Shown piece after piece: positions 30,992 through 36,262 of a stretch of DNA of 39,696 bases. This DNA is from an uncultured Planctomycetaceae bacterium (GTDB lineage Bacteria > Planctomycetota > Planctomycetia > Planctomycetales > Planctomycetaceae): contig CALFSX010000264.1 in assembly GCA_937916515.1 (NCBI GenBank), forward strand, positions 1 to 39,696, given 5' to 3'. Below the pieces are notes generated by a model, which did not search any database, had not been told where the DNA came from, and worked only from the letters and a program-made list of their open reading frames with translations. The position numbers were made by a program, and so were the translations under genes. The number at the start of each line of letters is the position of its first letter. Positions within the stretch are counted from its first letter, which is position 1.

Positions 30992-31035
30992 CTGCCAAAC
31001 TCTCTGAAAAAGAACACAGCACAACTTTGCAGAAA

Positions 31036-31108
<73 letters not shown>

Positions 31109-31121
31109 AGGTGGACTCGCA

Positions 31122-31274
31122 CTATTTCTTGCGAGATTCCTTATGCACGGTATGACGCCGCAATTTCGGACAATACTTCTTCAACTCAAGTCGCTCAGTA
31201 CCACGAGTTTCTTTAATGACTCGATAATTGCGGAGACCCGTTTCCGTGCACTCCAGCCAAACATATTCTCTCAC
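31122..31274 (-). CDS. rpmG: 50S ribosomal protein L33
   Basis: A 50-residue L33 beginning MREYVWLECTETGLRNYRVIKETR and ending LELKKYCPKLRRHTVHKESRKK. Only two cysteines (9 and 35) are present, so the CxxC pairs of the zinc-binding form are lost. It starts with GTG (31272-31274), preceded by AAGGGG. It lies between tuf and tRNA-Trp, a common position for rpmG next to secE. Confidence 0.95.
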   Translation of the reverse strand: MREYVWLECTETGLRNYRVIKETRGTERLELKKYCPKLRRHTVHKESRKK

Positions 31275-31293
31275 GGAAGACCCCTTCAACCCT

Positions 31294-31334
31294 AAACAGA
31301 AAACTGCTGGGCACCAAAATCAGCACACCAGCAG
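31294..31334 (-). terminator. Probable intrinsic terminator after tuf
   Basis: A 7-bp stem CTGCTGG/CCAGCAG (31304-31334) with a 17-nt loop is followed on the minus strand by TTTTCTGTTT. It begins about 20 nt after the tuf stop and would partially separate tuf from rpmG-secE-nusG transcription. The large loop lowers confidence. Confidence 0.5.
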
Positions 31335-31354
31335 CCACTGAGCCAAACCGAAAG

Positions 31355-32551
31355 CTATTCAACAATCTTAGTAACAACACCAGAACCAACAGTTCGTCCA
31401 CCTTCGCGAATCGCGAATCGGCTACCTTCGACCATGGCGATTGGCTTACCAAGCGTAACTTCAACCTTAACATTATCGCCAGGCATACACATCTCAGCTC
31501 CACCCATCAAATCTGTCGTACCAGTTACGTCAGTCGTGCGGAAGTAGAACTGAGGACGGTAGCCAGAGAAGAATGGCGTATGTCGACCACCCTCTTCTTT
31601 GCTAAGAACGTAAACTTCACCTTCGAACTTTGAGTGAGGCTTAATTGAGTTCGGAGCAGCGATAACCTGACCACGCTGAATATCTTCTTTCTTCAAACCA
31701 CGAAGAAGAATACCAACGTTATCACCAGCCTGACCCTGATCCAGAGTCTTCTGGAACATTTCAACACCAGTACAAGTTGTTTCCTGAGTGTCACGCAGAC
31801 CAATGATCTGAACCTTCTCACCGACCTTAACAACACCGGCTTCAATTCGACCAGTCGCAACAGTACCGCGACCTTCGATTGAGAAAACGTCTTCCACAGC
31901 CATCAGAAACGGCTTGTCAGCATCACGAACAGGCTCAGGAATGAATTCATCTAAAACATCCATCAGATCAGAAATGCACTTGCTGTACTTCTCATCAGAA
32001 GGATTCTCAAGAGCACCGCGAGCGTTGCCCTTAACCAATGGAATATCATCGCCCGGGAAACCGTACTTCGTAAGAAGATCACGAACTTCCAACTCAACCA
32101 ACTCCAGAAGATCCTCGTCATCAACAAGGTCAACCTTATTCATGAAAACAACCAGAGCAGGAACGTCTACCTGACGAGCCAACAGAATGTGCTCGCGAGT
32201 CTGAGGCATTGGACCACTATCAGCAGCCACAACCAGAATCGCGCCATCCATCTGTGCGGCACCGGTAATCATGTTCTTAATAAAGTCAGCATGCCCCGGA
32301 CAGTCAATGTGAGCGTAGTGACGATTTTCAGTTTCGTACTCAACGTGACTCGCAGCAATGGTCACAGTCTTAGTAGCATCGCGAACCGTACCACCCTTGG
32401 CGATATCCGCGTAGCTCTTAGCCTTACCCAAACCCTTAGCAGCCTGAACCGCCAGAATCGCAGCAGTTGTGGTTGTCTTTCCGTGGTCAATGTGTCCAAT
32501 CGTACCCACATTCACATGTGGTTTTGTTCGCTCAAAATTACTCTTTGCCAT
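31355..32551 (-). CDS. tuf: Translation elongation factor Tu, divergent switch I
   Basis: A 398-residue EF-Tu that delivers aminoacyl-tRNA to the ribosome. The P-loop GHIDHGKT (19-26), DCPGH, NKVD and the domain II and III blocks (e.g. [24 protein letters not shown] and [11 protein letters not shown]) are canonical. The effector loop is not: in place of the usual PEE..RGITI run it reads [24 protein letters not shown] (about 46-69), so Arg-Gly of RGITI is Lys-Thr while the Mg2+-coordinating Thr is retained. ATG 32551 is chosen, preceded by GGAG. It follows four tRNA genes, as in E. coli tufB. Confidence 0.98.
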
Positions 32552-32668
32552 CTCCAAACTCCATGTCAACTGCGGAACACTTAATCCACAGCCCAACAAA
32601 ACGATCAAAAAAGAAACACACAACGGCGACTTACACAAGACACCGCACCACACCAACACACAAACCAA

Positions 32669-32741
32669 AGCTGCTGATGGGATTCGAACCCATGACCTCG
32701 TCCTTACCAAGGACGCACTCTACCGACTGAGCTACAGCAGC
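32669..32741 (-). tRNA. tRNA-Thr (GGT anticodon)
   Basis: A 73-nt cloverleaf: acceptor GCTGCTG/CAGCAGC, D-arm GCTC..GAGT, anticodon loop TTGGTAA (GGT, reads ACC/ACU), T-arm ATGGGTTCGAATCCCAT. The discriminator is U in RNA. CCA is not encoded. It is the last tRNA before tuf, matching thrT before tufB in E. coli. Confidence 0.97.
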
Positions 32742-32759
32742 ACTCGATCGGCCCAAAAG

Positions 32760-32830
32760 AGCGGGCGATGGGAATCGAACCCACGCGACCAGCTTGGAAG
32801 GCTGGAGTTCTACCATTGAACTACGCCCGC
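32760..32830 (-). tRNA. tRNA-Gly (TCC anticodon)
   Basis: A 71-nt cloverleaf: acceptor GCGGGCG/CGCCCGC, D-arm GTTC..GAAC, anticodon loop CTTCCAA (TCC, reads GGA/GGG), T-arm GTGGGTTCGATTCCCAT. The discriminator is U. CCA is not encoded. It matches glyT in the E. coli order. Confidence 0.97.
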
Positions 32831-32881
32831 AGTCTTCCTCACAACAAACCAAACGCAGCTTTGGACCAACAGCTGTGAGAG

Positions 32882-32964
32882 TGGGGGCAGCAGGATTCGA
32901 ACCTGCGAAGGCGTAAGCCACCAGATTTACAGTCTGGCCCATTTGGCCGCTCTGGAACACCCCC
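32882..32964 (-). tRNA. tRNA-Tyr (GTA anticodon)
   Basis: An 83-nt class II tRNA with a long variable arm. The acceptor is GGGGGTG/TGCCCCC with two G-U pairs, the anticodon loop CTGTAAA (GTA), and the T-arm GCAGGTTCGAATCCTGC. The discriminator is A, as usual for bacterial tRNA-Tyr. CCA is not encoded. Confidence 0.97.
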
Positions 32965-33029
32965 TAGACTTTTTCTGCAAACCATTAGACCGAAGTCCGT
33001 CAGACGTTCCCCATTCTAAAGTTTACTAA

Positions 33030-33102
<73 letters not shown>

Positions 33103-33130: not shown

Positions 33131-33158
33131 AGTATAGCAACGGAACTTCGCCAGGCAA
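33131..33158 (-). promoter_or_regulatory. Promoter of the tRNA-tuf cluster with GC-rich discriminator
   Basis: On the minus strand TTGCCT (33153-33158), a 16-nt spacer and TATACT (33131-33136) are followed by GCCCGG. A GC-rich discriminator after a strong -10 is typical of stable-RNA promoters under stringent control. The predicted start lies about 20 nt before tRNA-Thr(TGT). Confidence 0.75.
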
Positions 33159-33755
33159 GGCTGATCCCCTAAACCTTTTGCGGAGTACCAATTTAGATAA
33201 ATTCACACAATTTTTGCTACTGGATCATCCGGAATTTCTTTCCACATTCAAGATGTTTCCAGAGCGAGACGAATTTCCAGTGCCTCTGTAGTCGGCAGTG
33301 ATTCACACAAAATGAAGTGAATCGCCGCCTAATCGGCTCAGAATACACGGAATCGACCAACGCCCGCAAACTCGATCGACTCAACAGTTGCGACCCCATT
33401 GGTGTTCCAGGAACCTGGAATTGCAGTCGCAATCCCCCTGCGGCAACAGCCACTGTGCCTGCCACCAATTCCACAACTACCAACGCCAACCGCCGACACC
33501 AGAGATTCGCTCGAAGCACAAGAGCTTCACAATCCTCAGATAAACACGTGGCAAATGAGGCATCGACGTCTCCAACTTTGAGCAACATTTCGACACAAGC
33601 GGTTTTTGTCTGGTTCACCTGAACGCCGGAAATGCAAAAAGCTGATACGCCGTAGACGCTTCAGCTTTTGCAATATAAACGAAAGAAAATCGAGGTTCGC
33701 TGCGAACGCAAATCCAACAACCTGAACAGGCATGCGTGAGTTGCCGGCCTGAGAC
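33159..33755. other. Gap between sigma gene and tRNA promoter
   Basis: About 600 bp without a convincing gene. It contains the hairpin terminator of the sigma factor gene near 33633-33672. The remaining open frames are low-complexity and unlike any protein I know. Confidence 0.5.
33633..33672 (-). terminator. Terminator hairpin after the sigma factor gene
   Basis: Arms TGCAAAAGCTGA and TCAGCTTTTTGCA (12 bp with one bulged base, 15-nt loop) lie 84 nt after the sigma gene stop. On the minus strand the 3' arm runs into TTTTTGCATTT, giving the T-rich exit of an intrinsic terminator. The A/T-rich arms mean it could work in both directions. Confidence 0.6.
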
Positions 33756-35420
33756 CTAAATCCCAGGTATATCGACCTGCTTACGCTGTGCAATGCGGCG
33801 GAGCTTTTCCAACGTTCGAACTTCAATCTGTCGAACGCGCTCTTTGGTCACACCCAGCCGATTTCCGACCTCTTCCAACGTTTCCGGCTCACTACCCTGC
33901 CCCAAACCGAACCGGCAAGAGATCACTTTTCGCTCTCGACCGTTCAATTCGCCCAGAATTTCCATAAGAGCGTTACGCTGGGCCTTATTAACCATCTCTT
34001 CAGCAAATGCGTTGCCCCGACCGTCGGTGGAATCATAGAAGATTTCGTCAAACCCGGTCCTGAAACGATCAGAACGAGTGTGCTCGGCTGGCACGGATCG
34101 AGCAAAATTCTTCATGATCGCCCAGGATGCGTAAGTGGAAAACTTATTGCCGCGAGCATAGTCGAACTTTTCGATCGCACGAATCAGCGACATATTGCCG
34201 TCACTTACGAGCTCAAAAAAGTTGACCCCCGGCTTCAAGTGCCGCTTAGCAATGGAAACAACCAGCCGCAGATTTGATCTGGTCAGCATTCCCTTAATCG
34301 CGGACGCCTCTTCCAGCAACGACTCCATTTTCCTGGCGGTTCGAGCACCATTTTTTCGATTATTGAGCCCATTCTGCAGCTCAGAAGCCTGCCACTTCAG
34401 AAAATTCATCTTGCGGAAGTAGTACTGTTCCTGCGCCTTGTTCAGCAGCGGAACCTTGTACAACTCAGACAAATATGCTGGCAAGCCGCTCGGAACACGA
34501 ATGGCAGCCTTACTTTCGTCGTAATCCGGCGCCGCGCCGCAAATCACCTTCTCAGCGTCTTCCATGCGGAATTCCTCGCTGTCCATGAAGTCAATTTCCG
34601 CTGAACGCAACCGCTTCACTCGCATTTCAGCCAACAATGTGTGAATAGCCGGCTTGCTTTTGCCGAAGCGTCGAGCCAAGTCCGGAATCGACACACCTTG
34701 CAGGTACAAATCAAACATCAGTGACTGATGTTCTGGAGAAACCTGAGTACCAGCCTTCGGGAAAATGGCGTTTTCCGGGTGCAGTTTGTCGTAGTCTCGC
34801 AGTGTATAGCGAACAGTTTCGGTCGCTCGATTCAGCTTTTGACCAAGCTGACGACTAACTTCCGTCAGCCCCAAACCAGCCCGCGACAGGGATCGTGCTT
34901 CCATAATGATCTGTTCGCGTTCGCTGTCTGACATCTGACAAAAACTGCGACTGCGATCGATTTCCTGCTGGTGGACGGCCACAAAGCGATCCAGAGTCGA
35001 TTTCCGAATCACGACACGCTTGCGCCCCTGAATCGTCACCCGCCGACTTGCCAGGCCTCGATCTCGCCATCGATCAACAGTCTTGGCAGATACGCTGAAC
35101 TGCTGGCTCACTTCCTGAACGGTTAAAACCGGCTCGCCGAAGTCACCTACAGACTGGCCCAGGCTATCCGAAAGATCCTCAACAAAGCACCGCAAATCGT
35201 GGGCGAGATCAGAACCGGAAATCGTGGCGGCGGAATCCTGCTCCGGACGGTATCCAGTTACCTGAAAACAGACCTCAGCGTAGGAATATTCCGCAGAACT
35301 ATCCATATTAAGTAGAAACTCTTCAGCCTGCAGAATCTGCTTGTTCCGCACAGCCTGAGGAGCAAACCGAACCTGCTGCTCGGTAAGTTGCTTAAGTGTT
35401 TTTGATCGGTAACGGGACAT
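33756..35420 (-). CDS. Sigma-70 family factor with N-terminal HTH modules
   Basis: A 554-residue composite protein. Residues 98-146 form a MerR/excisionase-type HTH (LTVQEVSQQFSVSAKTVDRWRDRG). Two further HTH-like segments lie near 168-210 (LTEVSRQLG..) and 231-268 (VSIPDLARRFGKSKPAIHTLL). The C-terminal half is sigma-70: region 1.2/2.1 from about 310, region 2 at 378-441 (FELVSDGNMSLIRAIEKFDY, GNKFSTYASWAIMKN), a short region 3, and region 4 at about 483-545 (TLEEVGNRLGVTKERVRQIE). In region 2.4, residues equivalent to E. coli W434, R436, Q437 and T440 are Ala, Met, Lys and Ala. The start has a perfect AAGGAGGT ribosome binding site. It is an alternative or divergent group-2 type factor, not standard RpoD. 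Confidence 0.88.
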   Translation of the reverse strand: MSRYRSKTLKQLTEQQVRFAPQAVRNKQILQAEEFLLNMDSSAEYSYAEVCFQVTGYRPEQDSAATISGSDLAHDLRCFVEDLSDSLGQSVGDFGEPVLTVQEVSQQFSVSAKTVDRWRDRGLASRRVTIQGRKRVVIRKSTLDRFVAVHQQEIDRSRSFCQMSDSEREQIIMEARSLSRAGLGLTEVSRQLGQKLNRATETVRYTLRDYDKLHPENAIFPKAGTQVSPEHQSLMFDLYLQGVSIPDLARRFGKSKPAIHTLLAEMRVKRLRSAEIDFMDSEEFRMEDAEKVICGAAPDYDESKAAIRVPSGLPAYLSELYKVPLLNKAQEQYYFRKMNFLKWQASELQNGLNNRKNGARTARKMESLLEEASAIKGMLTRSNLRLVVSIAKRHLKPGVNFFELVSDGNMSLIRAIEKFDYARGNKFSTYASWAIMKNFARSVPAEHTRSDRFRTGFDEIFYDSTDGRGNAFAEEMVNKAQRNALMEILGELNGRERKVISCRFGLGQGSEPETLEEVGNRLGVTKERVRQIEVRTLEKLRRIAQRKQVDIPGI

Positions 35421-35426
35421 GTCGAA

Positions 35427-35455
35427 CCTCCTTATATGAGACTGGCTTCAAGCCA
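35427..35455 (-). promoter_or_regulatory. Strong RBS and 13-bp palindrome before the sigma gene
   Basis: AAGGAGGT (35427-35434) lies 5-6 nt before the ATG of the sigma gene, the best Shine-Dalgarno in the window. Just upstream is a palindrome, TGGCTT-C-AAGCCA (35443-35455), that could be an operator or a small RNA hairpin next to the ribosome binding site. Confidence 0.45.
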
Positions 35456-36262
35456 ACCTTCGTGCACAGACTTTAAGGCAAAGCCCGTGCCGGATGCCGT
35501 CCAACCGTCCTGGCTGAGACACTTCCGAACCCTTCAAAACCCGTCTTGGGCCGTAAAAACATACCGCAAATAAAACTATTCACACACAAAAATTTTACCA
35601 GACGACACGAAGTTCTTCTTGTAAATACGTAAACAAGACACGCTTCAATTGCAAAAACGTTCGTAGAATTCATGCAAAGAAGCTAGTTTCCTGCAATCTC
35701 CACAACGAGCAATAATTGCCGACAGCTTACTTAGTGACGCGAAACATAACCTCCTCCTTACGTTCACTTTGACGTCACTTTGAATTCCAGAGACATCACA
35801 TTGACTATCGCGCGTATTTGCTGCACCAAAACGCTTCGCAATGTCACCTGATGAACATTGAGTGCCAGCACCGCACACACAGGACAACCATGGACACTTC
35901 ATAAATCATTGCATATTAATAACTTACGACAGAAGAATTGCTTTTACCGAAACAAGCAGTGGGTGGAACGTCAATTGCAGCCTGGTCTTGGGCCCAACAA
36001 CACACTTGAATAAGCCAAAACCATTCCAGCGAATTCTAACCCTGAGTACTTTGAGGTTGGCCGAATCAAAGCTTGCCCCCAGTAGATGCGTTAGTTTCAA
36101 TTTCTGAACCAGACTTCGAACGAACTGCAACGAGTTTTGTTGCAGCCTTCACTACTGATAACGCGTGTACGGTGCATGTCTCTTTCCCGAGCGACAACGG
36201 AACATTTCCAGGCGTCAACTCGGCAAGAAAACAGGTACCGTGCCTTTGCTAGGGTCGATGCC
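35456..36262. other. Intergenic region with no convincing gene
   Basis: About 800 bp between the divergent sigma gene and the plus-strand membrane protein gene. It must hold both promoters, but no clear -35/-10 pair was found. Short open frames here, including a Cys-rich one at 35645-35902 on the minus strand, have no recognisable features. Confidence 0.45.

Follow-up and report, generated by a model that had tools for sequence, protein, structure and literature searches.

The window analyzed here is a stretch of 39,696 nt from an uncultured Planctomycetaceae bacterium (contig CALFSX010000264.1). On its minus strand, an ATG-started open reading frame (ORF) at 33756..35420 encodes a 554-amino-acid protein of the sigma-70 family in which an N-terminal module with three helix-turn-helix (HTH) domains precedes the sigma domains. 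A conserved element lies upstream of the gene. The features of the locus, with their basis in brackets, are:

35626..35662, minus strand: conserved upstream element GAAC-N29-CGTA with middle block CGTGTC, 206-242 nt before the ATG
35427..35434, minus strand: Shine-Dalgarno TAAGGAGG (sequence)
33756..35420, minus strand: protein of 554 aa, sigma-70 family, with three N-terminal HTHs (ORF, Pfam, class-wide matches)
35136..35420, minus strand: N-terminal domain, residues 1-95 (conserved and modeled; no Pfam best stretch)
34971..35135, minus strand: HTH1, residues 96-150, winged HTH, BldC/MerR-like (Pfam, alignment, models)
34782..34943, minus strand: HTH2, residues 160-213, tri-helical HTH (AlphaFold models, conservation)
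34602..34748, minus strand: HTH3, residues 225-273, tri-helical HTH, sigma-region-4-like (Pfam PF08281, models)
34083..34487, minus strand: regions 1.2 and 2 (sigma-2 domain), residues 312-446 (Pfam, alignment, model)
34098..34142, minus strand: core of regions 2.3-2.4, FSTYASWAIMKNFAR, residues 427-441 (alignment with E. coli RpoD)
33981..34082, minus strand: linker replacing the sigma-3 domain, residues 447-480 (alignment, model)
33786..33971, minus strand: sigma-4 domain, residues 484-545, with near-canonical region 4.2 (Pfam, alignment, model)
33633..33672, minus strand: 3' hairpin, probably a terminator (folding)

Profile searches and structure models both resolve this layout. Pfam places HTH_17 at residues 98-147 (30.5 bits, cut-off 27), a Sigma70_r4_2-like HTH at 229-264 (28.0 bits, cut-off 25.7), Sigma70_r2 at 380-436 and Sigma70_r4 at 489-541, and TIGR02937, the general model for the sigma-70 superfamily, scores 106.7 bits against a cut-off of 42.9. 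A full-length AlphaFold model (mean pLDDT 83.2, pTM 0.48) has a mostly helical segment at residues 1-95, a winged HTH at 98-149 and tri-helical HTHs at 165-213 and 229-273, followed by region 1.2 and sigma-2 at 315-442, a disordered linker at 443-469 and sigma-4 at 471-547. A second model, covering residues 1-275 (mean pLDDT 88.5, pTM 0.61), agrees with it. The domain folds are credible; the mutual placement of the domains is not, because of the pTM of the full-length model. A preliminary description of this DNA had proposed a MerR-like HTH and two more HTHs ahead of sigma regions 2 and 4, and Pfam and the models bear this out, which answers its own reservation that the N-terminal segments might not be HTH folds. 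The ribosome-binding site that it called perfect is indeed strong, with TAAGGAGG placed 6 nt before the start codon. Its proposal that the gene has its own terminator is probably right: the 3' hairpin folds at -21.2 kcal/mol (z -4.1, folded within a stretch), but a simple consensus terminator scan lists none there.

The protein is encoded throughout the class of the window genome. At E<=1e-60, 242/248 genomes of the class match (218/222 high-quality genomes), mostly once each, which places the composite layout beyond chance and, on the question of taxonomic distribution raised earlier, makes this a core gene of the class. Nearly all of the class matches listed span the protein, with exceptions such as G358 (residues 204-553) and G417 (27-554). 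For a second family of the same class, 188/199 genomes match at E<=1e-100 (141/144 high-quality). Three genomes, G408, G436 and G589, have three strict-threshold matches apiece, compared with one in most others. In a phylum sample, 56/294 genomes match at E<=1e-20, including matches to the sigma half only, and the N-terminal module is found at E<=1e-10 in 25/149 genomes, 8 of them within the class. Conservation was assessed in an alignment of 71 sequences, the window protein plus 70 of 80 loci; these are the best 80 of 402 relatives, and all 80 are planctomycete (Planctomycetaceae, Pirellulales, Isosphaeraceae and others). Left out were L050 (frameshifted), L108 (partial), L063, L066, L068, L074, L075, L076, L078 and L079, as well as orthologues from the phylum sample; another sequence set comprised 108 sequences. 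In L050 (JAGQPY010000076.1), the orthologue frame stops at 451 aa while the match runs on, reflecting a frameshift or an assembly error. PF04542 and PF04545 exceed their cut-offs in the window protein, and both match all 71 members (E<=0.01).

HTH1 can be aligned with BldC, such that BldC K26 corresponds to K113 and BldC R30 to R117. In BldC, these two residues make base contacts (PMC5859096). R117 is invariant in both the 71-orthologue alignment and a 51-sequence alignment; K113 is at least 90% conserved in the latter, yet is not listed as conserved in the former. The NCBIfam model HTH_BldC scores 27.2 bits on the window protein, below its curated cut-off of 77, and matches 20/25 members at E<=0.01. 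No Pfam best stretch falls on residues 160-213, so the assignment of HTH2 comes from the two AlphaFold models, in which its helices span residues 165-180, 185-195/196 and 200-213; R198, E201, T202 and R204 of HTH2 are invariant in 71/71 orthologues, as are recognition-helix residues of HTH1 and HTH2. In the full-length protein, HTH3 scores as region 4 of an extracytoplasmic function (ECF) sigma factor; for the N-terminal piece by itself the score is 25.6 bits, just under the cut-off, and in structure comparison sigma-4 structures are among its best matches, but tied with others. Judging from the BldC contact residues, HTH1-3 may contact DNA. Residues 1-95 form a further conserved domain: no Pfam family has its best stretch there and no fold stood out, the fold lists being filled by HTHs, which provides no evidence for a new fold. 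A Foldseek search with the N-terminal model returned zero matches at E<=0.001. Two genomes of one family (G061, on C93, and G130, on C154) carry domain 1-83 without the HTHs, in an open frame of roughly 380 aa in which the sigma half is matched as well, and this domain seems to be a separate module.

In the sigma half, we compared the window protein with E. coli RpoD, using E. coli residue numbering. W433 is kept, and the replacements W434A, R436M, Q437K and T440A noted in the preliminary description are exact; N383, L386, F419, R423, T429 and Y430 are all retained. The stretch from W433 to R441 in region 2.4, WAIMKNFAR, shows no variation among the 71 orthologues aligned and is variable in out-of-class homologues. 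The sigma-2 core as a whole is the best conserved domain within the class (mean identity 0.85, 45/74 columns at >=95%). Region 4.2 is near-canonical, as first described, reading VTKERVRQIE against VTRERIRQIE in RpoD. Region 3, earlier called short, is better described as missing: the alignment has a gap opposite the sigma-3 block of RpoD, Sigma70_r3 (PF04539) has no match on the window protein even at E<=1, and residues 443-469 of the linker in its place are predicted to be disordered. In sigma-70, Q437H and T440I shift the -12 preference, and duplex promoter DNA can be bound less well when W434 or R436 is changed (PMC2613000). W433 and W434 keep the bubble's upstream edge in place (PMC4593229). 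On the strength of this published genetics and of the W433/W434 role, the window protein would have an altered -12 preference and a weaker melting wedge, and the unusual -10 suggested earlier is a plausible consequence. By themselves, the changed region 2.4 residues are not exceptional, because W434 is also absent from 7/7 short planctomycete paralogues that we aligned and group 3 sigma factors read other -10 elements (PMC4598750).

Motif discovery on 96 upstream regions, left after removal of near-duplicates (88 in-class and 8 out-of-class), recovered GCGAACTTTTT...CGTC...CGTA, with the general form GAAC-N16/17-CGTC-N8-CGTA. GAAC-N26..30-CGTA occurs in 55/88 class loci, compared with a mean of 1.8 and a maximum of 6 in shuffled sequences and 4 in a reversed control; the count is not independent, since the motif was derived from the same loci. 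The spacing to CGTA is nearly fixed, with N28 or N29 after GAAC in 48/56 matches. A strict three-block pattern occurs 26 times, in 25/71 family genomes, against 6 occurrences of the reversed pattern, and 20 of the 26 adjoin the sigma gene. With a fixed-spacing version in 20 genomes, 5/5 exact matches, 1/2 one-mismatch matches and 0/2 two-mismatch matches lie at the sigma gene. Among looser patterns in 20 genomes, GAACTTTT-N11..13-CGTC gives 120 matches against 57 for its reversed control, and the fixed-spacing pattern with up to three mismatches gives 72 against 50. The element is nearly private to the sigma gene, which suggests either autoregulation or one dedicated regulator; as read from the sequence, it could be bound by the N-terminal HTHs of the protein itself or by such a regulator. 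A larger regulon was considered and none was seen among the 60 relaxed matches inspected out of 192. We also rejected TTGCAA-N17-TACGTA as the gene's own promoter, as it fits only the window and loci L043, L045, L046 and L050; L044 lacks the second half, and L102 has a stray match.

Together, the sequence, the predicted folds, the conservation, the core status in the class and the nearly private element lead us to favor, by a modest measure, the view that the protein is an alternative sigma factor of the sigma-70 family in Planctomycetota that carries its own DNA-binding module. From what is known of the family, sigma-2 and sigma-4 would contact both the core RNA polymerase and the DNA of the promoter. 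The pocket for the flipped -11 A is retained and the residues that read and hold -12 are changed, a combination suggestive of a preference for -10 elements with an altered upstream edge. Because sigma-3 is missing, the usual mode of reading an extended -10 would presumably not be available. The BldC-like HTH1, together with HTH2 and HTH3, would bind a specific site beside the promoter, and the holoenzyme could thereby be recruited to a few promoters with no need for a separate activator. As the anatomy suggests it, the first predicted target is the sigma's own gene, which carries the nearly private element, and the factor would thus be autoregulated.

Several observations weigh against this interpretation. 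GAAC-N26..30-CGTA is missing from 33/88 class loci and 8/8 out-of-class loci, and the strict pattern from 46/71 genomes, including that of the window. Among the 60 inspected relaxed matches, 11 are at the sigma gene, and any other gene family turns up in at most three loci that lack this gene. Position 406 is S in 71/71 orthologues, and Q406 of RpoD is important for core binding. Two class members outside the 71, L016 and L022, have Y at F439. In 8 of 17 chosen out-of-class sequences, which were picked partly because their matches ended early, the N-terminal module persists but sigma-2 looks degenerate to the eye; sigma-4 is lost in five of these eight and diverged in three. Sigma activity is therefore not always the conserved trait. 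Finally, GAAC-N16/17-CGTC resembles an ECF promoter and the sigma-4 domain here is RpoD-like, so another sigma may read the element.

This last point underlies an alternative about the element alone, in which it is a promoter read by one of the many ECF sigmas and the gene is a step in a cascade, not autoregulated. We regard this as a real if minority possibility, otherwise compatible with an alternative sigma carrying a DNA-binding module. CGTC is typical of ECF promoters, the window genome has 76 sigma-2 matches overall, and GAACTT-N16/17-CGTC also has the -35 AAC motif of ECF promoters (PMC4598750). An ECF promoter would leave the near-privacy of the element to this gene unaccounted for, and does not explain the downstream CGTA at near-fixed spacing.

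The persistence of the N-terminal module in out-of-class sequences with a decayed sigma half, with the sampling just described, is what a sigma-derived transcription factor would predict, one whose working part is the HTH module, with a sigma half that only touches RNA polymerase, as an activator or appropriator, and does not itself direct initiation. The replacement of W434 and Q437 and the absence of sigma-3 point the same way. Within the class, it is the sigma-2 core that is best conserved, with the -11 pocket residues and region 4.2 also retained, and we consider this explanation unlikely. We likewise doubt that the protein is an ordinary alternative sigma with N-terminal HTHs that are structural, regulatory or anti-sigma-like and do not bind DNA, since the BldC base-contact residues are kept and recognition-helix residues of HTH1 and HTH2 are invariant. 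A more elaborate scheme invokes two alternative -35 readers, in which HTH3 would be an ECF-type sigma-4-like domain and HTH2 perhaps a sigma-3-like one, set ahead of sigma-2 and supplementing the canonical C-terminal sigma-4. Here, the N-terminal part would read the GAACTT of the gene's own ECF-like promoter, the C-terminal sigma-4 would read a TTGACA-like -35 and HTH1 would act as anchor, so that one protein serves as sigma, activator and autoregulator, switching between two promoter classes; we hold this to be quite improbable. That the gene encodes the housekeeping sigma with a normal -10 preference, the other reservation of the preliminary description, is almost certainly wrong: the near-canonical region 4.2 and the place beside the tRNA-tuf-rpoBC cluster would fit it, but two canonical RpoDs with WWIRQAITR are encoded elsewhere in the window genome (L001 on C342 and L002 on C273, in frames of 560 and 585 aa) and sigma-3 and W434 are missing here, so the HTH-bearing sigma is not the housekeeping one.

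The out-of-class homologues with a degenerate sigma half are those of G185, G111, G242, G231, G284, G251, G270 and G278 (L159, L203, L202, L204, L207, L206, L205 and L155, respectively), and they seem to be sigma factors turned into something else. A search of phage and plasmid sequences gave matches in 55 phage and 361 plasmid records, none covering more than 80% of the query at a single site, and we rejected a phage or plasmid origin on this basis. In G659, sigma-3 is matched five times, with three of the matches in frames of 529-572 aa. The orthologue of this genome lies at 3.603 Mb and a canonical-type sigma at 3.625 Mb; either may be the cold-induced 'rpoD' RB6780. We rejected another R. 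baltica gene, RB12251, as the orthologue, since 3.603 Mb is far from its position as estimated from the gene number of rpoN. RB12251 is repressed under all three stresses in R. baltica (PMC2754498).

Downstream of the sigma gene in the window lies a cluster of tRNA-Thr-Tyr-Gly-Thr, tuf and tRNA-Trp (31035-33102), also seen in relatives. A tRNA scan confirmed the tRNA-Thr/Tyr/Gly/Thr genes; the gene at 31355 we take to be tuf, and the names secE, nusG, rplKAJL and rpoBC are likewise assumed from the look of the window translations. The sigma gene lies just upstream of a tRNA-tuf-secE-nusG-rpoBC cluster in 29/53 testable loci and not in the other 24, where a testable locus has at least 4.3 kb downstream and tuf is counted if on the same strand within 4.3 kb. 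The tRNA order Thr, Tyr, Gly, Thr occurs in 20/34 scanned loci (Gly is uncalled in L101), and tRNA-Trp then follows in all 20 but L088, where the locus ends. One further feature belongs to this cluster:

33131..33158, minus strand: sigma-70-type promoter-like site of the downstream tRNA-Thr, TTGCCT-N16-TATACT with TG before the -10 (motif)

CTTGC and TATA-type promoter forms recur before tRNA-Thr in the relatives examined. Because this promoter looks like a sigma-70 site, the tRNA-tuf cluster probably forms a unit of its own that RpoD reads, and the idea that the HTH-bearing sigma drives it finds no support. The tRNAs invoked in the preliminary description are real, but its argument for importance from this location is weakened by the partial linkage and the ordinary cluster promoter; the linkage hints at a growth-related setting and proves nothing.

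The protein is a widely conserved, usually single-copy and apparently undescribed regulator of a large planctomycete class, whose members divide by budding and have unusual cell plans. Should holoenzyme be recruited by the HTH module, a sigma factor and its activator would be fused in one polypeptide, and if that is true, the division of labor between sigma and transcription factors becomes directly testable. Lineages with a decayed sigma half and a kept HTH module suggest a route from sigma factor to another kind of regulator.

A literature search of open-licence PMC found no description of a family with this layout, in line with the preliminary description. The main text of a P. limnophila essential-gene paper uses 'sigma' once, for 'the housekeeping sigma factor' (PMC10632474). 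The models above a curated cut-off are general Pfam domains and, among 25 of the 52 NCBIfam matches, TIGR02937. The best NCBIfam score by E-value, in the sigma part, is to MzaA, the sigma-like protein of the MZA anti-phage system, but it reaches 150.6 bits against a cut-off of 800; PADLOC likewise matched MzaA over a sub-part, and an HTH weakly. We rejected an anti-phage link as a generic sigma match.

Among known systems, the protein resembles the group 1/2 sigma-70 factors (RpoD/SigA, RpoS), to which region 1.2, sigma-2 and sigma-4 can be aligned (E 1.4e-50 for the best PDB profile) and with which the window protein shares the -11 pocket residues and region 4.2. It differs from them in lacking sigma-3, in the replacement of W434, R436, Q437 and T440, and in an added N-terminal module of one domain and three HTHs; with no sigma-3, no W433/W434 dyad and a place other than that of principal sigma of its genome, it falls outside group 1. 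Like ECF (group 4) factors, it joins sigma-2 to sigma-4 without sigma-3 between. Unlike them, it is 554 aa long, aligns best to RpoD/SigA-type chains and has a region 1.2 that aligns with SigA, including the first helix (modeled at 315-322), whereas group 4 is defined by the absence of sigma-1.1, sigma-3 and the first helix of region 1.2 (PMC4598750).

Next in rank among matches to the sigma half come short planctomycete factors that have no HTH module, sigma-3 or W434. Those aligned (303-418 aa; C171, C26 and C62 of the window genome, or L150, L005 and L012, plus others) form a set distinct from RpoD. They share 31-38% identity over residues ~260-550, with A or S at 434 in 7/7 and K or R at 437 in 6/7, but lack the 275-aa N-terminal module, and 6/7 lack W433. 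In a small FastTree phylogeny, rooted on RpoD by choice and with its inner order not relied on, the short factors and the HTH-bearing proteins group together, and short sigmas without sigma-3 and W434 are perhaps a phylum-level group. Finally, HTH1 shares its fold and two base-contacting residues with BldC of Streptomyces. BldC is a free-standing protein of 68 residues that forms head-to-tail oligomers on direct repeats (PMC5859096), whereas HTH1 is one module in a protein of 554 aa.
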